Shown here in pieces: positions 43,743-56,404 of a stretch of 64,000 nucleotides of DNA. The notes under the pieces were generated by a model. That model had not been told where the DNA came from and did no database searches. It worked only from the letters and a program-made list of their open reading frames with translations. Numbering within the stretch: position 1 is the first letter of the stretch; each line of letters opens with the position of its first letter. This DNA comes from Sphaerochaeta sp. GTDB taxonomy: Bacteria; Spirochaetota; Spirochaetia; Sphaerochaetales; Sphaerochaetaceae. The stretch lies in the NCBI GenBank assembly GCA_022482495.1, contig JAKVPA010000002.1, positions 1 through 64,000 of the forward strand. The letters run 5' to 3'. A program made the translations under genes and the position numbers.

Positions 43743-45644
43743 TCACCCGGCGAAGAATACGCCGTGCTGCCGAAGCGTCTGGGTGGCTCCCTTCAGCTCC
43801 TCCACCACATCACGATAGGCCGCTTCATTGGGAATCTCCGTTTCGATGAAGAACGAATACTCCCACGGCTTGCCCAGAATCGGCCGGCTTTCCAGTTTCT
43901 TCATGTTGAGTTTGTGGACGGACAAGACGTGCAGCGCGTCAAACAACGCGCCCGGCTTGTCGTTCACGCTGAACGACATGACGGCCCGGTTGGGGATGTT
44001 GGAGGAGATGAACGTCGCCTCGTTCTCCTCACGGCAGATCACATAGAAACGGGTGTAGTTGCTGGGGTTGGTCTCGATGCCTTCACGCAGCACCTCCATC
44101 TTGTGGTACGCCGCCGCCGGAGCTCCGGCGATGGCGGCCTTGCTCCGGTCTCCCGTCGCCTTGATGAACGCCACGGCTCCCGCCGTATCGTAGTAGGAGA
44201 CAGGCTTGGCCTGGGGCAGTTCCTTCTCCAGGAACCGGGCGCACTGGGCCAGCCCCTGGGGATGGGAATACACCTCGCGGATATCTTCCATCTTGGTACC
44301 GGGGATGACCACCAGGCTGTGGATGATCCTGACCTGCTGCTCTCCCACCACTTTGATGCCCGGATGGAGCGCCAGAAGATCCAGCGTGTCATAGATCGTG
44401 CCGCCCAGGGTGTTTTCCACCGGAACGACACCGTACTTCACTTCCCCTTTGTCCACCGCATCGAACACATCCTTGAACGTCGGGCAGGGGCGTACCGCTG
44501 TTTTTTCGCCGAACAGGCGGGTGACGGCCAATTCGCTGTAGGCGCCACGCTCTCCCTGGAACGCCACGGCATCCTGCATCTGCGGGGTGACATCCACCTC
44601 GGTGGTGGTGATCAACGAGGTGCGGGGGATCCGCTCCAGGCTCTTGCCGACCACCGGAGCCAACGCCTCCACATCACGCATCAGTTTCTCGAACTGCTGG
44701 GGATACAGTGACTGGGGGCCGTCGCTCAACGCGACATCCGGATGGTCATGCACCTCGACGATGATGCCTGACGCGCCGCTGGAGATGATGGCAAGGCTCA
44801 TCGGGTTGACCAGATCCCTCAGGCCGGTGGCGTGGGACGGATCCCCGATGACCGGCAGGTGGGTCAGTTTCTGCACCACCGGGATGGCGGAGCAGTCCAA
44901 CGTGTTGCGGGTGGCGCGCTCATAGGTGCGGATACCCCGCTCGCACAGCACCACCTGGTCGGTGCCGCTGCTCATCAGATACTCGGCGGCCATCAACCAC
45001 TCCTCGATGGTGGCGGCGATGCCCCGTTTCAATAGGACGGGCATCCCGGTCTTCCCCACCGCTTTGAGAAGCTCGAAGTTTTGCATGTTCCGCGCGCCGA
45101 TCTGGAACATGTCCACGTAGTCCTTCATCATGTCGACGTTGGATGGACTGACGATCTCGGTGGTCACCGGCATATCGTACTTCTCACCGGCTTCCTTCAG
45201 GTATTTCAACCCTTCCTCGCCCAATCCCTGGAACGAGTACGGGCTGGTCCGCGGTTTGAACGCTCCGCCACGGAGCATCACCGCGCCGGCGTCCCGGACC
45301 AGGGATGCGATCCGCATGATCTGGTCGCGGCTCTCCACGGCGCACGGACCGGCGATGGCGACGATCCGCCCTCCGCCGATCTTCACCTTCCCCACCGAGA
45401 CGATGGTGTCTTCCTTCTTCAGTTCCCGGCTGGCAAGCTTGTAAGGTTTGGAGATGGGGATGACCTTCTCCACGCCGGGGAGCAGTTCCACTTCCCGGGG
45501 ATCGATCCTGCAGACACCAACGGCGCCGAACACCGTCTCCTCAGCTCCGACAATCTCATGGACCTGCAGTCCTTTGGAAGAGAGGAAACTCCTCAAATCA
45601 TGTTTCTGCTGGTCGGTGATGTTTTTGTTCAGTACGACAATCAT
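43743..45644 (-). CDS. aroF-pheA: DAHP synthase fused to prephenate dehydratase
   Basis: A 633-aa fusion for the first and a late step of phenylalanine synthesis. Residues 1-75: ferredoxin-like regulatory domain as in Thermotoga-type DAHP synthase. 80-345: DAHP synthase with IAGPCAVESRDQIMRIA, LRGGAFKPRTSPYSFQGLG, GARNMQNFELLKAVG, VLLKRGIAATIEEWL, DPSHATGLRDLV and a metal-binding EVHDHPDVALSDGPQSL. 365-540: prephenate dehydratase with VAFQGERGAYSELA and catalytic NYTRFYVI. 550-633: ACT domain with GALFDALHVLS and LESRPI, the Phe-binding pair. Both steps may thus be inhibited by Phe. The start at 45644 (MIVVLNKN) has TAGCAT 7 nt upstream. Confidence 0.93.
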   Translation of the reverse strand: MIVVLNKNITDQQKHDLRSFLSSKGLQVHEIVGAEETVFGAVGVCRIDPREVELLPGVEKVIPISKPYKLASRELKKEDTIVSVGKVKIGGGRIVAIAGPCAVESRDQIMRIASLVRDAGAVMLRGGAFKPRTSPYSFQGLGEEGLKYLKEAGEKYDMPVTTEIVSPSNVDMMKDYVDMFQIGARNMQNFELLKAVGKTGMPVLLKRGIAATIEEWLMAAEYLMSSGTDQVVLCERGIRTYERATRNTLDCSAIPVVQKLTHLPVIGDPSHATGLRDLVNPMSLAIISSGASGIIVEVHDHPDVALSDGPQSLYPQQFEKLMRDVEALAPVVGKSLERIPRTSLITTTEVDVTPQMQDAVAFQGERGAYSELAVTRLFGEKTAVRPCPTFKDVFDAVDKGEVKYGVVPVENTLGGTIYDTLDLLALHPGIKVVGEQQVRIIHSLVVIPGTKMEDIREVYSHPQGLAQCARFLEKELPQAKPVSYYDTAGAVAFIKATGDRSKAAIAGAPAAAYHKMEVLREGIETNPSNYTRFYVICREENEATFISSNIPNRAVMSFSVNDKPGALFDALHVLSVHKLNMKKLESRPILGKPWEYSFFIETEIPNEAAYRDVVEELKGATQTLRQHGVFFAG

Positions 45645-45651
45645 ACGGAAA

Positions 45652-45680
45652 ATGCTAGAATGTTCAGCGGAAAAAAACAA
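45652..45680 (-). promoter_or_regulatory. Leaderless-type promoter of aroF-pheA
   Basis: Minus strand TTGTTT (45680-45675), 17-nt spacer, TAGCAT (45657-45652), then 7 nt to the ATG. Confidence 0.45.
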
Positions 45681-45711
45681 GCGGGGGATGAAACGGCATC
45701 CCCTGTTCGGG

Positions 45712-45717
45712 TATACT
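45712..45717 (+). promoter_or_regulatory. -10 box of nth
   Basis: TATACT followed by GAAACC and ATG at 45724. The spacing and the junction are the same as for the nitroreductase gene at 6066. No good -35 box is seen. Confidence 0.4.
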
Positions 45718-45723
45718 GAAACC

Positions 45724-46386
45724 ATGACAGAAGCAGCATGGGACGCAATGTTCGACCGGATGCGGAACGCAGTCGTCCAGGCGGGAGGGGATCTTCCCTC
45801 CGTCTCCCAGATCGCCCGGGAAAAACAGGATCCCTACCGGGTGCTGATCAGCACATTGCTGTCGCTCCGGACCAAAGACCAGGTGACGCTGGAAGCATCC
45901 CGAAGGCTGTTCGCCCTGGCGGACACCCCTCAGGCGATGGTGCGCCTCAGCCAGAAAGAAATCGAACAGGCGATCTTCCCCGCAGGCTTCTACCAGCGCA
46001 AAGCCCAGCAGATCCTCTCCATCTCCCACCTGCTGATCGATCGGTACGGCGGAGCCGTGCCGGCCGACCAGAAGGCGTTGATGGATCTTCCCGGCGTGGG
46101 AATCAAGACGGCCAACCTGACGCTGAACCTGGGTTTCGGCATCAACGCGCTCTGCGTCGACTGCCATGTGCACCAGATCGCCAACCGGATGGGCTGGGTG
46201 AAGACCAAAAGCCCGGAAGAGACGGAAAAAGCGCTGCAGAGCGTCATGCCACCCAAACACTGGATCCCGATGAACGAACTGCTGGTATCCTTCGGACAAC
46301 TGGTCTGCACCCCGGTCAGTCCCAAATGCTCCCGTTGCCCGGAAGCGGGCCACTGCCCAAAGATCGGAGTTACGAAAGCGCGATGA
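45724..46386 (+). CDS. nth: Endonuclease III
   Basis: A 220-aa DNA glycosylase/AP lyase for oxidised pyrimidines. The helix-hairpin-helix LMDLPGVGIKTANLTLNLGF (about 118-137) has the catalytic Lys, and NALCVDCHVHQIANRMG (about 140-156) has the catalytic Asp (the usual Thr after it is Cys here). The C-terminal 4Fe-4S cluster is C-x6-7-C-x2-C-x5-C (VCTPVSPKCSRCPEAGHC). The start at 45724 was chosen from homolog length and the -10 box; a Met 12 codons upstream is possible. It is divergent from aroF-pheA. Confidence 0.94.
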   Translation: MTEAAWDAMFDRMRNAVVQAGGDLPSVSQIAREKQDPYRVLISTLLSLRTKDQVTLEASRRLFALADTPQAMVRLSQKEIEQAIFPAGFYQRKAQQILSISHLLIDRYGGAVPADQKALMDLPGVGIKTANLTLNLGFGINALCVDCHVHQIANRMGWVKTKSPEETEKALQSVMPPKHWIPMNELLVSFGQLVCTPVSPKCSRCPEAGHCPKIGVTKAR

Positions 46387-47513: not shown

Positions 47514-48467
47514 TCAGAACGAGGCCTCCACCACGCCGGCCACCGCCTCCGGTTTGCCCAGCGTATAGTAGTGGACGCCCGGTACCTGATGGGAAAGCAG
47601 ATCCTTGGTCTGCATGATGGCCCACTCCACTCCGACGGCCTTGATCGCCTTCAGGTCGGGTGCCTTCTGCACCGCATCGGCAAGATCCTTGGGAATGTCC
47701 ACGTGGAACGTCTGGGGAATGGTCTCCAGATCCTTCCTGCTGGAGAGCGGCTTCAGGCCGGGGATGATCGGACAGGTGATGCCCGCCGTGCGGCAGGCGT
47801 CGACGAACGCGTAGTAGCGGGCGTTGTCATAGAACAGTTGGGTGACGACGTACCCCGCCCCCTTCTCCACCTTCCGTTTCAGGTTGGCGATGTCGTCTTC
47901 CCCGTTGGGTGCCTCGGCGTGCTTTTCCGGGTAGCCCGCCACCCCGATGCAGAAATCTGTGGCGACCGGCGCTTTCACCGTCTCTTCCAGATATTTCCCA
48001 TGGTTCAGATCGACGATCTGCCCGACCAGTTGGTCGCTGTGGCTCCACCCGCCGGGGACCGGAACGAACCGCTTCTGGCCGGCCGGAGGATCGCCACGCA
48101 GGGCCAGGACGTTGTCGATCCCCAGAAAATTCAGCTCCACCAGGCTGTTCTCGATCTCCTCGGCGCTTTGGCCGCCGCAGATGATGTGGCTGACCACCGG
48201 AATGCCGAACGTATACTGGATCAACGCGGAGAGGGCAACCGTCCCCGGCCGCTTGTGGACCACCTTCCGTTCCACCAATCCGTCCGGCCGGTCGACATAC
48301 ACCACCTCGCTCTGATGGTTGGTGATGTTGATGTACGCCGGTTGGTATGCGCTGAGCGTCCGGATGGTCTGCAGCAATGACTGGATGTTGGCTCCCTTCA
48401 ACGGGGGAACGACTTCAAAGGTGAACAGTGGTTTTGTCGCCTTGGCAAGAATCTCAGTGACTTTCAT
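47514..48467 (-). CDS. metF: Methylenetetrahydrofolate reductase
   Basis: A 317-aa FAD enzyme reducing 5,10-methylene-THF to 5-methyl-THF, the methyl donor for MetH. The N-terminal FTFEVVPPLKGANIQSLLQT (about 15-34) has the catalytic Glu; INITNHQS, LGIDNVLALRGDPPAG and VTQLFYDNARYYAFVDACR are standard TIM-barrel elements. The start (MKVTEIL) lies 14 nt inside the metH end, so it is coupled. Length is as for bacterial MetF, with a slightly longer C-terminus. It is the last gene of the methionine operon. Confidence 0.95.
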   Translation of the reverse strand: MKVTEILAKATKPLFTFEVVPPLKGANIQSLLQTIRTLSAYQPAYINITNHQSEVVYVDRPDGLVERKVVHKRPGTVALSALIQYTFGIPVVSHIICGGQSAEEIENSLVELNFLGIDNVLALRGDPPAGQKRFVPVPGGWSHSDQLVGQIVDLNHGKYLEETVKAPVATDFCIGVAGYPEKHAEAPNGEDDIANLKRKVEKGAGYVVTQLFYDNARYYAFVDACRTAGITCPIIPGLKPLSSRKDLETIPQTFHVDIPKDLADAVQKAPDLKAIKAVGVEWAIMQTKDLLSHQVPGVHYYTLGKPEAVAGVVEASF

Positions 48468-51400
48468 CTTCCGCAACCTCCTGGATGAACGGGACCAGCT
48501 GGTCCGCCGGCACCCTTTTGCATCGGGCATAGTGTTCCAATTGCCGACGGGATATCTTTCCTACGGAGAAATACCGGACCATCGGAGCGGCAATGACCAC
48601 GGCGCAGATCGACGAGGGAGGATCCATCGCATAGGTTTCCGTCAGACGTACCCCGATCCTTGCGGTGGCGTCCAACGCGTCGAACAACGTCCGCTTCTCA
48701 CTGTGGTCCGGACAGGTGGGATACCCCGGTGCCGGACGGATCACCGCCGTCTGCGCGCCCCACGTTACGATCATCCGCCGTTGGGTCTCTTCGGCAAGCA
48801 CTTCGGCCATCCGGTCGTACAGCATCTGCCCAAGCAGGCGGCGGTACGGATCCTGTTCCTCCCATCGGGCAAGCTCGCTGGAGACGACGAACAGTCCCGC
48901 CGTATCATTCTCCCGGGCGATGAAATCGGCAAGGCACAGCCCGGTGGCTTCGTTGCGGAGAAAATGGAAATCATGGTCCCCGATACGCACCGTCATCCGG
49001 TCGCTGGAGGCGGGGAAGATCCCATAGACGGCCCGGCAGCCGGCACGAAGGCTGTCCAGAAACGCGGGCTCAGAGAGAAGCGCTTTGCCGTCCCGCACCA
49101 CACGCTCCGCTTCCTCACTTCCCCACGGTACGTTCCAGGCAAGGGTGAACTCCTTCCAGTTGATCGTTGCCGTCAATTCCTCCACCGGGAAATGGTCGAC
49201 CTGGAAGACCCCATGCACCGGACTTTGCGAGCCATGGGGATTCTGCCTCTGAAGCGTCAGCGCCTCTTCGAGCGAATGACGCTGCAAAGGCTCTTTGGGG
49301 ACCCGCATCGTCTGATACGCTTCCTTGATGCTCTGAAAATAGGATTCCCTGTCTTTTCCGACTGCCTTCATGGCGGCCAAAGCCATCGCCGAGGCGTCTG
49401 TCGTCTGGATCACCGGAGCATCGTACAGCGGAACGAGTTTCAGGGCGGTGTACAGCGGACTGGTCGTCGCGCCTCCGACGAAGATCGGGATCTGGGAGCC
49501 ACGCTCCTGGAAGTACTGGATCGTCCGGGCCATCTCGCCAAGGGATGGGGTGATCAACCCGGAGAGGGCCACCAGGTCGGCATGGCAGGACGCGGCTTCC
49601 TCCCAGATCCGTGGGGCGTCCACCATCACCCCGAGGTCATGCACCTCGAAGTTGTTGCAGGAGAGGACCAATGAGACGATGTTCTTGCCGATGTCGTGCA
49701 CATCCCCTTTCACCGTGGCAAGGACGACCTTCTTCTTCGCCGCTCCCTCCACCTGTTTCCCCAAAAGGGTTTTCTGGATCTTCGGTTGGAGGATGTCCAC
49801 CGCCTTGCGCATCGTCCGGGCCGAGCGAACCACCTGGGGCAGGAACAACTTTCCTTCTCCGAACAACGTCCCTACCGTTCCCATGCCGTCCATCAACGGA
49901 CCTTCCACCAGGGAAAGCGGATCCTCGCCATCCAATGCGGCCAAGTCCTGGGAGAGCAGGGAATCGTCCCCATGGACCACCGCCTGGGTGAGTCGTTCTT
50001 TGGGAGGGAGCGTTTTCCACGCTTCCACTTCTGTTTTCGTTTTGACGGGGGAGCCACTGGGGACCATCACGCCGGCAAGGGCGATGAGAGCCTCGCCACT
50101 GGCGTGGTCCCCGATGCGAAGCGCCCTGCTGATGATCTCCCGTTCCTCCGCTCCGATATGGGAGACATCCCGGTCCATCCCGGGATTGATGATGGCCATA
50201 TCCAGACCGGAAAGGTCCAGGAAGACGGAATGCATGGCGCCTCGGATGGCGTTGTTTCCACGGAACGCGAAGGAGAGGTTGCTCACGCCGCCACTGACAT
50301 GGACCTGGGGGATGTGCTGGTGGATCCACGCGACCGCTTGGATGAAATCCCGGGCGTAGCCGTCATGTTCCGGCACGCCGGTTGCGATGGCCAACACGTT
50401 GGGATCGATGATGATGTCTTCCGGCCTGATGCCCGCGCCAAAGAGCAGATCACAGCTTCTGCGGGCGCAGGCGATCTTCCGCTCCAACGTATCCGCCTGA
50501 CCCTGCTCGTCAAACAACATCACCACCATGGCGTGCCCGAAGCGCTGGATCTCTCGGGCATGATCCAGGAACACCGCCTCCCCTTCCTTCAGGGAGATGG
50601 AGTTGATGATGCACCGGCCCTGGATCTCTTCCATCGCCGCCTGGATGACGGAAAAGTCGGAAGAGTCGATCATCACCGGGATGCGGTTCACCGAAGGATC
50701 GCTCTGGATCATCCGGAGGAAGGTGACCATCGCGGTTTTGGCGTCCAGAAGCGGGGCATCCATGCAGATGTCCAACACATCGGCGCCACGATCCACTTCG
50801 TCCCGGGCGATGGCAAGCGCCTCGTCCCAGGCGCCGTTCGCGGCAAGCTTGGCGAACTTCGCCGAGCCCGCCACGTTGGTCCGCTCCCCGATGACGAACA
50901 ACTTCCCCTTCTCGGGGGAACGGACGTCCAACGAGGCAAGGCGCAACGCATGGTCATCCTTTTCGGGTATCTGCGGCTTCTTCCCTGCTACCAGCTGTTT
51001 GATGGCCCGGATATGATCCGGAGTGGTGCCGCAACAGCCCCCGACGATATTCAGGTCCGGTACCACGGAAGCAAGCGTAGCGGCGAACTCATCCGCCCCG
51101 ACCTGGTAGTTCCCTTCCTGGTCAGGGAACCCGGCGTTGGGATGGGCGGAGACGAGAAACGGGGATGTGGCGGCCAATTGGCGGATCTTGTCCGTCATCT
51201 CCTTCGGTCCGGTGGAACAGTTCAACCCCAGGGAGAACAGGGGGTAGCCGCTCAGGGAGACGATGACGCTCTCAAGGCTCTGGCCGGCAAGCGTCCGGCC
51301 ACTCTGGTCACTGAAGGTCATGCTGACCATGAGGGGGATGGTCCGGCCGTTCGCCTGCATCGCTTCCCGGCACCCATGGATGGCGCTTTTGGTCACCAAC

Positions 51401-51915
51401 GTATCGTACTGCGTTTCGATCAAGAAGAGATCGACACCACCATCCAGCAGCGCTTCGGCCTGCTCTCGGTACATGGCGACGAATTCAGAAAAGGTATGCC
51501 GCCGATAGGTGGGGTCCTCCACGTTGCCGGCAAGGGAGAGTGATTCTTTCCCCGGCCCAATGTCTCCGGCGATCCACGCCTCCCGCCCGCCCCTGGCCCG
51601 CCGGGCGATCTCGCAGGCGGCAAGGTTGATGGCCCGCACCTCTTCAGCCAAGCCGTATTCCTCCAAGGAAAAGCGGGTGGCGCAGAACGTATTGGTCTCA
51701 ATGATGTCCGCTCCTGCGTCCAGATAGGCGCGGTGGATCGATTCGATCACCTCCGGCCGGTTCAAGTTGAGCAGTTCATTGCAACTGGGTTCGTTGGTCT
51801 GGGTGCGCGCATTCCAGAACGCCGAAGCATCCAGATGGTGCGCCTGGATCATCGTGCCCATGGCGCCATCCAGCACCAGCACGCGTTCCCTTGCCGCCTC
51901 TCTGATATCCTTCAT
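48454..51915 (-). CDS. metH: Cobalamin-dependent methionine synthase, full length
   Basis: A 1153-aa enzyme moving a methyl group from methyl-THF via cobalamin to homocysteine. Homocysteine domain (about 1-310): VLDGAMGTMIQAHHL and Zn ligands in GLNCSTGPKEM and GGCCGTTPDHI. Pterin domain (about 325-600): VIGERTNVAGSAKFAKL. B12 domain (about 640-850): VKGDVHDIGKNIVSLV with the cobalt-binding His740. Activation domain (about 880-1153): RPAPGYPTCPDHSEK and SSICAVVIAAPMVRYFSVGK, so SAM-dependent repair should work. The start overlaps the UPF0280 stop (ATGA). No SAM or B12 riboswitch is seen in the operon leader. Confidence 0.97.
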   Translation of the reverse strand: MKDIREAARERVLVLDGAMGTMIQAHHLDASAFWNARTQTNEPSCNELLNLNRPEVIESIHRAYLDAGADIIETNTFCATRFSLEEYGLAEEVRAINLAACEIARRARGGREAWIAGDIGPGKESLSLAGNVEDPTYRRHTFSEFVAMYREQAEALLDGGVDLFLIETQYDTLVTKSAIHGCREAMQANGRTIPLMVSMTFSDQSGRTLAGQSLESVIVSLSGYPLFSLGLNCSTGPKEMTDKIRQLAATSPFLVSAHPNAGFPDQEGNYQVGADEFAATLASVVPDLNIVGGCCGTTPDHIRAIKQLVAGKKPQIPEKDDHALRLASLDVRSPEKGKLFVIGERTNVAGSAKFAKLAANGAWDEALAIARDEVDRGADVLDICMDAPLLDAKTAMVTFLRMIQSDPSVNRIPVMIDSSDFSVIQAAMEEIQGRCIINSISLKEGEAVFLDHAREIQRFGHAMVVMLFDEQGQADTLERKIACARRSCDLLFGAGIRPEDIIIDPNVLAIATGVPEHDGYARDFIQAVAWIHQHIPQVHVSGGVSNLSFAFRGNNAIRGAMHSVFLDLSGLDMAIINPGMDRDVSHIGAEEREIISRALRIGDHASGEALIALAGVMVPSGSPVKTKTEVEAWKTLPPKERLTQAVVHGDDSLLSQDLAALDGEDPLSLVEGPLMDGMGTVGTLFGEGKLFLPQVVRSARTMRKAVDILQPKIQKTLLGKQVEGAAKKKVVLATVKGDVHDIGKNIVSLVLSCNNFEVHDLGVMVDAPRIWEEAASCHADLVALSGLITPSLGEMARTIQYFQERGSQIPIFVGGATTSPLYTALKLVPLYDAPVIQTTDASAMALAAMKAVGKDRESYFQSIKEAYQTMRVPKEPLQRHSLEEALTLQRQNPHGSQSPVHGVFQVDHFPVEELTATINWKEFTLAWNVPWGSEEAERVVRDGKALLSEPAFLDSLRAGCRAVYGIFPASSDRMTVRIGDHDFHFLRNEATGLCLADFIARENDTAGLFVVSSELARWEEQDPYRRLLGQMLYDRMAEVLAEETQRRMIVTWGAQTAVIRPAPGYPTCPDHSEKRTLFDALDATARIGVRLTETYAMDPPSSICAVVIAAPMVRYFSVGKISRRQLEHYARCKRVPADQLVPFIQEVAEDESH

Positions 51916-52646
51916 AGCGAAACCACCTCCAAATCTCCCGCCACGGCAAGCTTGTCACCGCACAGCGCCAGAAATCCCTTTACAGTATGCAATATTTTCG
52001 CCTGCCGCGCCACCGAAGGGAGGTCATTCTCCCCATGCACCCGGTTGCAGAACGCCGTGGCGTACGCATCGGCCAGGGCCGCGTCCTGACAGGCGACCAT
52101 CACGGCATCGGCAGATCCGAAACTCAACGAAGGTCCCGTCGTACCGCTGGAGGTGGCGATTCCGATCGGACAGGATGAAGGAAGAACACGGATCCCGATT
52201 CTCCCATCCAGCGGGTTTCCCGGTGCGACCACCTTCACCACGATGGATTCCCGGACATCCACAAACAGATCCCCGCCGTTCTCCACCACCACTTCATCCA
52301 GAGAGAACCGCCGCTTCAGCGCCGATCCCACCTCTTGGGCGATGGCTCCGGCCACCGAGGCCATCGGGCCGACCCCGGCGGCTCTTCCCGCCTGGAGCAT
52401 TGCAGCCAAGAGAGGTGTTTCTCCATCGCCGGCAAGCGGCGTCAGGCTTGTCAGGAATCGAGGGTCAGAGGCGGAACGGATCTGGCTACGAAGTGACACC
52501 ACCAGGTGTCGTGCCGCATCCCGGATCCGGCCGGAATCCACAGAGGGCGTCCATCCGATGAAAAGATCGGTTTCCTGCACACTGAACGTGACGGTGGAAA
52601 ACCGTCCATCCAACATTCCGTTCCGATAGGTGCGTTCCTGATACAT
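51912..52646 (-). CDS. UPF0280 (COG2122) protein, ApbE-like fold
   Basis: A 244-aa protein. LPSSCPIGIATSSGTTGPSL (about 177-196), ENGGDLFVDV and CNRVHGENDLPSVARQAKIL are the family hallmarks. In anaerobes this family travels with COG1900 and NIL-ferredoxin proteins and has been linked genetically to homocysteine synthesis; its exact reaction is not settled. Here it sits between NIL-ferredoxin (1-nt overlap, TAATG) and metH (ATGA), the expected context. Confidence 0.88.
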   Translation of the reverse strand: MYQERTYRNGMLDGRFSTVTFSVQETDLFIGWTPSVDSGRIRDAARHLVVSLRSQIRSASDPRFLTSLTPLAGDGETPLLAAMLQAGRAAGVGPMASVAGAIAQEVGSALKRRFSLDEVVVENGGDLFVDVRESIVVKVVAPGNPLDGRIGIRVLPSSCPIGIATSSGTTGPSLSFGSADAVMVACQDAALADAYATAFCNRVHGENDLPSVARQAKILHTVKGFLALCGDKLAVAGDLEVVSL

Positions 52647-53044
52647 TACGCCACGGAGAACAACCGGAGCGGACAGGCGTGGACGCACAGCCCGCAGACC
52701 ACGCACCGGGATGGGTCGTACACCAGATGGGCATCCTTGTCCAGCGACAGCGCCCCGCTCTGGCAAACAGCGGTACAGGAACCGCAGTGCACGCATTTAT
52801 CCTGCACAAACAGGATGTCAGAGGCCATCGGAGAGACGGTGACTCCATAGCTTTCCAGCCATGCCACGGCATCTTTCAGATGGGAGGCCGTTCCCTCAAA
52901 CTCCACCACCAGCATGCCGCCCTTGCCGCTTGCCACATCGGCGTTGAGGATGTTGATCTCCAGATCATACGACTTGACCAGTTTTCCCACCACCGGCTTG
53001 TCCACCATCCGTGGAGAGAACCGAAGCGTATACCTGCGTTTCAT
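52646..53044 (-). CDS. NIL-domain ferredoxin
   Basis: A 132-aa protein. Residues 1-75 form a NIL domain (YTLRFSPRMVDKPVVGKLVK, then LEINILNADVASGKGGMLVV); residues about 80-132 hold two 4Fe-4S clusters (CVHCGSCTAVCQSGA and CVVCGLCVHACP). In Methanosarcina the equivalent protein is the reducing partner of the COG1900 homocysteine-forming enzyme. It overlaps the HcyBio gene by ATGA and the UPF0280 gene by 1 nt. Confidence 0.92.
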   Translation of the reverse strand: MKRRYTLRFSPRMVDKPVVGKLVKSYDLEINILNADVASGKGGMLVVEFEGTASHLKDAVAWLESYGVTVSPMASDILFVQDKCVHCGSCTAVCQSGALSLDKDAHLVYDPSRCVVCGLCVHACPLRLFSVA

Positions 53045-54198
53045 ACTTCCTCCTTTTGCCGCGGCTCCAACGGCCGCACAGAGCTTTCCGTGGGAAATGA
53101 CGCCACCGGTTCGGTAAGCAGGAATTTCCCATCCTTGATCCATCCGGAGAGAATACCGGCGATCTCCCGGGCTTTTGCCAGGGAGGACATCGGGGCGGTA
53201 TGGACCGTCCGGCCGTCAAGCTGAATGCGTCCGCTGCGCAGCTGTTCATAGTTGGTCCGGGCGATGGCGGGATGCCCGCTCTGGGCATAGTCACACACCA
53301 CCGTCTCGATCTCCCGGTTGCTGATGGAAAGCCGCGTCGCCATTTCCTCGTCCAGCACCGGGATGGGGATCCCCAGTCCGACGAACATCGACACGCCGTA
53401 CTTGTAGAAGTACGCGGCGCGCAGATATTCGGTGGTCATCTCCTTGGCGTTCCCCACCACGGCCAAGGTGGCCGCTCCTCCAAGGGGAATGCCTTTGTCG
53501 TTCCGCTTCTGCATCGTATTGAACTGGGTGCCGTTCCAGACGACGTATCCCGTCGCCCCCCCAAGGAAGATCCGTGTCCCGATGCCAATGGTCCGCAGGT
53601 ATGGATCGTTGAGCAGTGGGGAAAGCTCGCCGGAAGTGGAATAGGTCACGTTGTTCCGATGGGGCAGCAGGCACCCCATGTAGGTGTACATGATGGCATC
53701 CGACCCATTGGTCGCCGCCGCGTAGTTCTGGTAGGCGTTGCGGGGATTGAACAGGTAGAACTCGTTGACCGTATCCTTGGTGATCCAGGTGTCGATCTCC
53801 TTGGTCGGATAGCAGTCCGTCCCTTTTCCCCGTGCATGGAGATGCACCTGCTTGCCGTCGACCAGATCCTGGATGACGTTGGCGCCGCCGTAGGCGTTGT
53901 CGTACCGGCTCTCCGCCGTGGCTCCGATGTAGCTGTCCACCGCGGCCAGCCCTTCGTAGCAGTCCACCCCGTTGATCTCGATCTCTTCCATCCGGATTCC
54001 CGGCTTCCAATGACCGAAGTTGATCACCGCGCCGGATGAGCACATCGGCCCGAACGTCGCCGTTGTGACGACATCCACTTCCTTGGCCAAGGTGGCGCAG
54101 TCCTTTTCCTTGGCAAGACGGGTGAATTCCTCGGCGGTCATCACCACCACCGAACCGTTCGCGATCTTTTCGTTGATTTCCCTAATGGTCTTGGCCAT
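53041..54198 (-). CDS. Homocysteine biosynthesis protein (HcyBio, COG1900/DUF39)
   Basis: A 385-aa enzyme proposed to form homocysteine directly from aspartate semialdehyde and a sulfide source, replacing the O-acyl-homoserine route. TIREINEKIANGSVVVMTAE, FGPMCSSGAVINFGHW with Cys53, HARGKGTDCYPTKEI with Cys129, YMGCLLPHRNNVTYSTSGEL and IGTRIFLGGATGYVVWNGTQ are typical. The two Cys are candidate sulfur carriers. It is unlike the fused HcyBio-CBS forms: it ends without CBS domains and relies on the separate NIL-ferredoxin next door. Start overlaps the upstream gene by 17 nt. Confidence 0.92.
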   Translation of the reverse strand: MAKTIREINEKIANGSVVVMTAEEFTRLAKEKDCATLAKEVDVVTTATFGPMCSSGAVINFGHWKPGIRMEEIEINGVDCYEGLAAVDSYIGATAESRYDNAYGGANVIQDLVDGKQVHLHARGKGTDCYPTKEIDTWITKDTVNEFYLFNPRNAYQNYAAATNGSDAIMYTYMGCLLPHRNNVTYSTSGELSPLLNDPYLRTIGIGTRIFLGGATGYVVWNGTQFNTMQKRNDKGIPLGGAATLAVVGNAKEMTTEYLRAAYFYKYGVSMFVGLGIPIPVLDEEMATRLSISNREIETVVCDYAQSGHPAIARTNYEQLRSGRIQLDGRTVHTAPMSSLAKAREIAGILSGWIKDGKFLLTEPVASFPTESSVRPLEPRQKEEV

Positions 54199-54517
54199 CC
54201 GTTCCTCCGATCGTCATCACGTTGATCAAATGATAGGCAGGTACTTCGTACGGATGGGCGCGCTTCAGCGCTTCCACCGCCTGGGCGGCGTGCAGTTCGT
54301 CCACCACCACCTCGATGCGGTACTCCACGACCTTTTCCAGCTTTCCGACCTTGCCGAGAAACGGATCACTCCCAAACAACGGGCGGAACTGCCCTTCCCC
54401 TTTGACCGTCCAGCAACAGTGGTCATAGCCGTCCATACATCCGCATCCTGCGTCAAACAACGCCTGCTTGACCGCCTCCAGATGGGATTCGGGCACATAC
54501 GTTACCAGTACATACAT
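54182..54517 (-). CDS. YqfO/NIF3-type C-terminal domain protein
   Basis: A 111-aa protein equal to the stand-alone middle domain of YqfO (NIF3 family, PII/CutA-like fold). MYVLVTYVPESHLEAVKQAL, then FDAGCGCMDGYDHCCWTVKG and RAHPYEVPAYHLINV are typical; the Cys-rich GCGCMDGYDHCC is unusual and could bind metal. Stand-alone versions have no known role. It is the first gene of the methionine operon and overlaps HcyBio by 17 nt. The ATG at 54517 is 6 nt after a -10-like TACCAT, with no ribosome site. Confidence 0.78.
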   Translation of the reverse strand: MYVLVTYVPESHLEAVKQALFDAGCGCMDGYDHCCWTVKGEGQFRPLFGSDPFLGKVGKLEKVVEYRIEVVVDELHAAQAVEALKRAHPYEVPAYHLINVMTIGGTDGQDH

Positions 54518-54594: not shown

Positions 54595-55473
54595 TCATCC
54601 TTTGACGGAACCGACCAGCACTCCTTTGACAAAGAACCGTTGGACGAACGGGTAGATCATGATGATGGGAAGCGTGGAGACCAGAATGACGGCGCTCTTG
54701 ATGGACAGGGACAACGCCCCTTTGTCGGCGCCGCCGGCCGAGCCGGCGTCTCCGCCGAGCATCGTCGTCCCGTTGACGATGTTCCGGAGGAACAGCATCA
54801 CCGGGAACTGGGAGCTCTTCAGGTAGATCAACGAATTGAACCAGTCGTTCCAGAAAAAGACGGCGGTGTACAGGGCGATGGTGGCGATCCCCGCCCCGGA
54901 GAGCGGAAGGACGATCCTGACCAGGATTCCTCCATAGTTCAGGCCGTCGATCACCGCGGCTTCCTCGATGTCCTGGGGAATTGATTTGAAGAAGTTGATC
55001 AACAAAATCAAATTGAACTGGTTGATGCAGAACGGGATCAGAATTGCCCACCGGGTGTTGGCCAGGTGGAGGTTGCTGATCAACAGGTAGTTGGGGATCA
55101 TGCCGCCGGAGAAGAACATGCTGAAGATCACCAGCTTCATGACGAACTTGTTCCCCCGAAGCCAACTTTTGGACAGGGGATAGGCGAACAGGATCGTCAT
55201 GGCCAGGGCGATCAACGTGCCGAACACCGTGTAGAAGATCGTGTTCCCATAGGCCCGGAAAAAGTTGGGATAGGAGAAGATCTGGCGGTACGCCTGGAGA
55301 TTCACCCCCCGTGGGATGATGAACACCTCTCCGTTGACGATCGCCTCCGATGAGGAAAGGGAGGCGGCAATGATGTACAAAAATGGCACCAGGCAGATCA
55401 ACAGCACCAGGAACATCACGATATCGATGCAGGTGTAATAGGCGATGGTTTTCGGGGTCTTGTACGTCTTCAT
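54595..55473 (-). CDS. ABC sugar transporter permease, LplC/YtcP type
   Basis: A 292-aa inner-membrane permease with six helices. The EAA loop is EEAAVIDGLNYGGILVRIVL (about 186-205). FFSGGMIPNYLLISNLHL and the C-terminal YPFVQRFFVKGVLVGSVKG mark the LplC/YtcP subgroup. It begins 7 nt after the previous permease. No ATPase gene accompanies it; such carbohydrate importers often share one housekeeping MsmX-type ATPase. It is the last gene of the peptidoglycan-sugar operon in this window. Confidence 0.92.
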   Translation of the reverse strand: MKTYKTPKTIAYYTCIDIVMFLVLLICLVPFLYIIAASLSSSEAIVNGEVFIIPRGVNLQAYRQIFSYPNFFRAYGNTIFYTVFGTLIALAMTILFAYPLSKSWLRGNKFVMKLVIFSMFFSGGMIPNYLLISNLHLANTRWAILIPFCINQFNLILLINFFKSIPQDIEEAAVIDGLNYGGILVRIVLPLSGAGIATIALYTAVFFWNDWFNSLIYLKSSQFPVMLFLRNIVNGTTMLGGDAGSAGGADKGALSLSIKSAVILVSTLPIIMIYPFVQRFFVKGVLVGSVKG

Positions 55474-55480
55474 GGGCACC

Positions 55481-56404
55481 TCAGTAGATGCTGTCGCCGG
55501 TAAGTCTGCGGGACAGCGCGTTGGACGAGGCGACGAGGATGACACCGATCACCCCGGTGAACAGGCCGATGGCCGTCGCGTAGGAATAATTCTGGTTGGC
55601 AAGCCCGGTACGGTACACCAGGGTATCCAGGATATCCGACACGCCGCTGTTCGCCGGCGTGTACATCAGCAACACTTTCTCAAAGCCCAGGGAAAGCAGA
55701 CGCCCGACGTTCATGATCAACATGATCATGATGGTCGGCAGGATGGACGGGATGGTCACGTACCAGATCTGCTGCCAGTGGCCCGCCCCGTCAATCGTCG
55801 CCGCTTCATACAGTTCCTGCGGGATGGAGGTGATGGCAGCCAGGTAGATGATGGCCGTCCACCCTGTGTACTGCCAGGTGTCCAGCAGGACGTAGATCCT
55901 GCGGAAATACCGGGGATCATTCATATAGTAGACCGGCTCTTTGCCGGAAAGCGACGAAAGAAAATGGTTCAACACGCCGGATGAGGGGGAAAGCAGATCG
56001 CTGATGATGGCGATGACCACTACGGTGGAGACGAACCGCGGCATGTAGGAGACGGTCTGCACCACTTTTTTGTACCTGACGTTCCGAACTTCATTGAGCA
56101 GAATGGCGAAGATCACCGGAATGGGGAAATTGATCACCAGATTGAGCAGGGACAACAACAAGGTGTTCCGGAACGCCGACCAGAACGCCGGATCCTGGAA
56201 GAACCGTTGGAAATACCGGGTTCCAACCCATTCCGTACCCCAGGGCCCCATGCCCGGCCGGTACCGGCGGAACGCCAGCACGTTGCCGAACATGGGCAGG
56301 TATTTGAAAATAATGAAATAGGCGAGCGGAAGCGCCATCATGGCATACAGATGCCAGTATCGCGCAAGGTACCGCTTCCAGCCGGACTGTTGGCTCTTCC
56401 GCAT
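55481..56404 (-). CDS. ABC sugar transporter permease, LplB/YteP type
   Basis: A 307-aa permease with six helices. PLAYFIIFKYLPMFGNVLAF at the N-terminus and the EAA loop LYEAATIDGAGHWQQIWYVT (about 207-226) identify the LplB subgroup. ANSGVSDILDTLVYRTGL is typical of its last periplasmic loop. It pairs with the LplC-type permease and the binding protein upstream (12-nt gap). Confidence 0.92.
   Translation of the reverse strand: MRKSQQSGWKRYLARYWHLYAMMALPLAYFIIFKYLPMFGNVLAFRRYRPGMGPWGTEWVGTRYFQRFFQDPAFWSAFRNTLLLSLLNLVINFPIPVIFAILLNEVRNVRYKKVVQTVSYMPRFVSTVVVIAIISDLLSPSSGVLNHFLSSLSGKEPVYYMNDPRYFRRIYVLLDTWQYTGWTAIIYLAAITSIPQELYEAATIDGAGHWQQIWYVTIPSILPTIMIMLIMNVGRLLSLGFEKVLLMYTPANSGVSDILDTLVYRTGLANQNYSYATAIGLFTGVIGVILVASSNALSRRLTGDSIY

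Follow-up and report, generated by a model that had tools for sequence, protein, structure and literature searches.

A six-gene operon in Sphaerochaeta predicted to carry the branch from aspartate semialdehyde to methionine

A route to homocysteine that depends on HcyBio (COG1900, DUF39), a NIL-ferredoxin and COG2122 is not new, having been found earlier in methanogens and in Desulfovibrio. In Desulfovibrio, mutant fitness data show that each of the three is required for methionine (PMC5764234). The D. vulgaris Miyazaki F genes DvMF_1464, DvMF_0262 and DvMF_0044 (PMC5764234) belong to the same three families as the genes described here, and their bacterial host has no classical route; their locus tags are widely spaced, whereas the present locus unites the genes with metH and metF in a single operon headed by a COG3323 gene. 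The Methanosarcina acetivorans system, MA1821-MA1822 with MA1715 (PMC12068725), shares with this locus the equivalents of the COG1900a residues Cys54 and Cys131 and an adjacent NIL-ferredoxin. Cys54 of MA1821 is essential in vivo, while Cys131 is helpful and non-essential (PMC12068725). MA1821 also has a C-terminal CBS domain for a proposed control by SAM (PMC12068725), unlike the HcyBio protein studied here. A third system, the coenzyme M synthase MMP16/ComF, has the COG1900 domain in common with this HcyBio but differs in its inserted ferredoxin and its cysteines, and HcyBio falls below the cut-off of the MMP16 model TIGR03287. No paper on the pathway in Sphaerochaeta was found in the open-access literature. 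The present analysis contributes the complete operon, the history of its assembly, the relatives with dual routes, and the linkage of COG3323 to metH.

The window (the whole 64,000-nucleotide stretch of Sphaerochaeta DNA that was analyzed) carries six minus-strand genes that run from 54517 to 47514 in the order COG3323 (YqfO-like), HcyBio, NIL-ferredoxin, COG2122, MetH and MetF (Table 1). A prior sequence-only reading of this DNA had described a six-gene operon, and all of its genes were recovered at the same positions and on the same strand. The overlaps between them, in operon order 17, 4, 1, 4 and 14 nt, agree with the 1-17 nt that it had reported. These tight overlaps are partly particular to the window genome; the 4-nt overlap of HcyBio and NIL-ferredoxin alone is constant (13/13 relatives measured), as would be expected for two subunits made together. 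The gene order is not due to chance, since two further genera of the family show it as far as their contigs reach.

A gene for a sugar ABC transporter permease precedes the operon at a distance of 77 nt. No consensus promoter match was found between 54200 and 55200, although such a consensus search says little. Control by a riboswitch or T-box was considered and set aside, as no Rfam family reached its gathering threshold nearby in the window or in ten relatives. On the 3' side lie a small uncharacterized ORF, a NUDIX gene, an nth-type glycosylase gene and a gene fusing DAHP synthase to prephenate dehydratase. It was noted that this fusion joins the initial step of phenylalanine synthesis and a late one in a single protein, with a possible weak ACT region below the Pfam cut-off.

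Table 1. Features of the operon, its surroundings and the compared loci. Positions without a prefix refer to the window.
Feature	Position	Strand	Length and matches
COG3323-like, stand-alone, YqfO insert-type, PII/CutA-like	54182-54517	-	111 aa; first gene
HcyBio (COG1900a, DUF39), predicted aspartate semialdehyde sulfurtransferase catalytic subunit	53041-54198	-	385 aa; PF01837
NIL-ferredoxin, NIL + 2x[4Fe-4S], predicted electron-donating subunit	52646-53044	-	132 aa; PF09383, Fer4
UPF0280/COG2122, predicted sulfide/persulfide delivery	51912-52646	-	244 aa; PRK04334 models, PDB 2o34
MetH, cobalamin-dependent methionine synthase	48454-51915	-	1153 aa; TIGR02082, five Pfam domains
MetF, methylenetetrahydrofolate reductase	47514-48467	-	317 aa; PF02219, TIGR00676
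Sugar ABC transporter permease	54595-55545		
DAHP synthase/prephenate dehydratase fusion	43743-45725		
Full-length PF01053-type gene, window genome	C2:91157-92278		
HcyBio-ferredoxin fusion, Thermotogota	L009:2888-4339		
Homocysteine S-methyltransferase-domain gene	L127:4306-5022 (G082); L128:8927-9616 (G083)		

The assignment of HcyBio rests on a match to PF01837 at 491.6 bits (cut-off 26.2) that covers the whole profile (1-349 of 349). Its residues C53 and C129 are the equivalents of MA1821 Cys54 and Cys131, an equivalence set by position and by conservation among COG1900a-type loci. C53 is invariant in 32/32 diverse COG1900a-type sequences and C129 is kept in 27 of the 32, with Glu or Asp in its place in the other five; an invariant C53 and a variable C129 are in line with the cysteine genetics of MA1821. 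PF01837 was the sole domain found on HcyBio, with no CBS domain, and the protein stops at 385 aa. Because a length of about 385-390 aa is also seen in several further COG1900a-type loci from bacteria and archaea, the missing CBS domain marks a subtype and not the family. The predicted structure of HcyBio is confident (pLDDT 94.7, pTM 0.91). A sequence search of the PDB gave no relative and Foldseek gave no match at E <0.1, and the best VIA-align Z was 3.2 across approximately 100 residues; this failure to find structural relatives is no proof of a new fold.

The remaining assignments likewise come from domain searches. The NIL-ferredoxin matches PF09383 at 54.2 bits and Fer4 models, with two 4Fe-4S motifs whose eight cluster cysteines are all present and invariant in the family. 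COG2122 scores 220.9 bits in its best PRK04334-type match, which extends over nearly the whole length but stays under the 271 curated for the best subtype model, and the solved member PDB 2o34 is matched at E 4.6e-27; judged by these similarities, the relationship to the family, though not to the curated subtype, is clear. MetH exceeds the cut-off of TIGR02082 (1073.3 against 1010.85 bits) and has all of its domains, five in Pfam including the activation domain. MetF is above the cut-off for PF02219 (213.7 bits against 24) and under the curated value for TIGR00676 (275.9 against 293.7 bits).

We assessed by family search whether the window genome, a 14-contig draft of 2.25 Mb with an estimated completeness of 95.8%, holds other routes to homocysteine. 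It carries one HcyBio. MetX gave no match there in a search that was positive in nine control genomes, and MetA gave no match either; as the genome is a draft in 14 contigs, the absence of metA and metX is likely rather than certain. The known routes via acylated or phosphorylated homoserine or via cystathionine use a PF01053 enzyme. Among six PF01053-type matches in the window genome one is full length (Table 1). This transsulfuration-type PLP enzyme looks like an L-alanine/L-glutamate racemase, its best match in the PDB (E 2.4e-112, versus 6.7e-79 for methionine gamma-lyase) as well as in NCBIfam (590 bits with a cut-off of 629 for the Ala/Glu racemase model; next best 373). The genome thus seems to be without a PF01053 enzyme in a homocysteine role. 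The gene asd, for aspartate semialdehyde dehydrogenase, is present to supply the substrate. Homoserine dehydrogenase is fused to an aspartokinase-like sequence and followed by thrC (threonine synthase, read by eye from the translation), so that homoserine is accounted for by threonine synthesis.

With no metA or metX, a racemase-like PF01053 enzyme, asd present and hom beside thrC, the operon is, as far as families can be recognized in the genome, the only apparent homocysteine route. The sequence-only reading had staked its claim on there being no acyl-homoserine pathway elsewhere, and apart from the racemase-like protein no MetX, MetA or MetB/MetC/MetY-like enzyme was detected; hom, which it had named together with these, is present but is expected for threonine, given its place beside thrC. 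Its assignment of HcyBio, NIL-ferredoxin and COG2122 together with MetH and MetF to one pathway is borne out by the families and by the absence of alternatives. Its view that the operon strengthens the case for this role in a bacterium holds insofar as the operon adds context, but the Desulfovibrio genetics (PMC5764234) had provided support earlier. We consider it highly probable (roughly 0.86) that the operon encodes, for an anaerobe, the entire branch leading from aspartate semialdehyde to methionine, and from this we infer methionine prototrophy of the organism.

A different possibility is that the HcyBio pair makes another thiol, in the manner of the coenzyme M synthase ComF/MMP16, with homocysteine coming from elsewhere or methionine being imported. 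The HcyBio superfamily does include MMP16, and relatives (g16) have a separate complete homocysteine route. However, TIGR03287 matches HcyBio at 131.3 bits, far under its cut-off of 363.95; HcyBio is without the inserted ferredoxin of MMP16 and has the two COG1900a cysteines, which are absent from the methanogen MMP16 loci (L016-L018). Its linkage to metH and metF is also fixed, and no other homocysteine route was found in the window genome. Synthesis of another thiol is, on these grounds, very unlikely.

The distribution of HcyBio was then examined among relatives. In the window's family, it was encountered in 25/139 genomes and 3/22 genera, with the same six-gene order wherever contigs reach except in three genomes (G090, G101 and G091; loci L054, L055 and L032) whose operon keeps HcyBio and NIL-ferredoxin without COG2122. 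This absence refers to the operon locus. The three genomes form one sub-lineage, and the Desulfovibrio genetics has COG2122 as required.

MetA is present in 20 of the 25 HcyBio genomes of the family, which rules out the proposal that HcyBio and metA are mutually exclusive. A full-length PF01053 gene adjoins metA in most of these 20 genomes. Its identity was read in G100, where MetA is of the acetyl type (459.9 bits, cut-off 460.5) and its neighbor is the O-acetylhomoserine sulfhydrylase gene metY (617.8 bits, cut-off 495.1). Most HcyBio-bearing relatives are thus predicted to have two homocysteine routes, and the absence of acyl-homoserine enzymes that had been foreseen from the sequence holds for the window genome but not for most of these relatives. 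The cassette is not a regular substitute for the classical route, and as most relatives keep metA it should not be taken as indispensable to the group. Keeping both routes may have to do with sulfide supply or B12. The window genome and G116, a 99% complete genome with HcyBio and without metA, metX or a full-length PF01053 enzyme, appear to have the cassette only. Three further HcyBio genomes without a metA match are 80-86% complete and say little.

Across the window's phylum, HcyBio was found in 66/393 sampled genomes and 43/168 genera. In 3 of the 20 phylum HcyBio loci examined (L106, L107 and L113), COG2122, MetF and MetH occur with an HcyBio-ferredoxin fusion, MetF preceding MetH; linkage to the methylation genes therefore exists in more than one arrangement. 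No COG3323 gene was found near HcyBio in these 20 loci. HcyBio and a two-cluster ferredoxin form a single protein in a Thermotogota genome (L009; Table 1) and in five genomes of the phylum (L106, L107, L109, L111 and L113). The L009 locus runs aspartokinase (named by eye), HcyBio-ferredoxin fusion, COG2122 and MetF, an order that would tie HcyBio to the metabolism of aspartate, its proposed substrate source, and to the methylation genes. The NIL part, the probable methionine sensor, may be dispensable for the reaction, because no NIL domain was detected in the L009 fusion.

The first gene of the operon follows a different pattern. The COG3323 protein matches residues 164-264 of the NIF3-related structure 2gx8 (phmmer; E 1.8e-20), and its HPYE motif (H88-P89-Y90-E91) is invariant in 8/8 sequences; at 111 aa it has no COG0327 domain. 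It shares this motif and the similarity to the YqfO inserted domain with the stand-alone COG3323 proteins of DUF34/NIF3 subgroup D (PMC8469502); here, by comparison, the gene lies next to metH, or to the cassette and metH, in most of the genomes examined. Nineteen HcyBio-free genomes of the family carry yqfO, with metH directly behind it in 9 of the 16 examined, and a part for YqfO in the homocysteine cassette was thereby ruled out. Since these nine relatives (loci L129-L135, L137 and L139) have yqfO-metH(-metF) with nothing between, the YqfO-like gene accompanies metH, not homocysteine synthesis. Its inclusion in the operon by the sequence-only reading stands as regards position, but its linkage goes with metH and not with the cassette. 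We tentatively raise the idea, itself somewhat doubtful, that stand-alone COG3323 proteins are dedicated partners of MetH, for example metal- or effector-binding regulators; if true, this would give an orphan family a function.

HcyBio-NIL-COG2122 behaves as a cassette between yqfO and metH. All family members group in the HcyBio tree (SH-aLRT 99), and in the MetH tree the cassette bearers share a single clade (98), within which three cassette-free genomes are nested and the window MetH has a long branch; both are quick trees, without bootstrap and with several long branches. The best fit to these patterns would be a single entry of the cassette between yqfO and metH, with losses afterwards. 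The block was probably inserted once, in the ancestor of these genera, and the window lineage would have lost metA/metY afterwards.

The other two members of the window's genus, G082 and G083, have lost the cassette, metH and metF from the locus, where the gene after yqfO is short and has a homocysteine S-methyltransferase domain only (238 aa in G082; Table 1); the G082 locus then shares the window's downstream neighbors. Both genomes were also seen to be without metA, metX and a full-length PF01053 enzyme, which suggests auxotrophy or a homocysteine route of another kind in these two species. The losses at the G082/G083 locus and the long branch of the window MetH would suit a view of the window organism as a methionine auxotroph in practice, its operon mainly recycling homocysteine through MetH and MetF and its cassette a relic. 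All cassette ORFs are nevertheless intact, neither catalytic nor cluster cysteines are lost, and HcyBio shares 68-73% identity with its family homologues, which makes a relic quite improbable.

For a functional branch from aspartate semialdehyde to methionine, the following scheme can be proposed. Gene content, gene order, conserved residues, the lack of detected alternatives and the tree history were computed here; for each catalytic step and for the sulfur source we draw on work on homologues. HcyBio would take up sulfur as a persulfide on Cys53, probably loaded with the help of COG2122, and would pass it to aspartate semialdehyde. Electrons from the NIL-ferredoxin would convert the presumed thioaldehyde to homocysteine, to which B12-dependent MetH would transfer a methyl group provided by MetF. 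Methionine is probably sensed by the NIL domain as a feedback signal, whereas the control by SAM that was postulated for the archaeal enzyme would be absent here, as HcyBio has no CBS domain.

On this account, every step from aspartate semialdehyde to methionine would be encoded in one transcription unit, in a genome where no acyl-homoserine route was detected. Its close relatives, with both routes, the classical route only or neither, form a comparison series in which it becomes directly testable whether the cassette suffices, whether COG2122 can be dispensed with and what COG3323 does. The operon also calls for caution against annotating such genomes as methionine auxotrophs.
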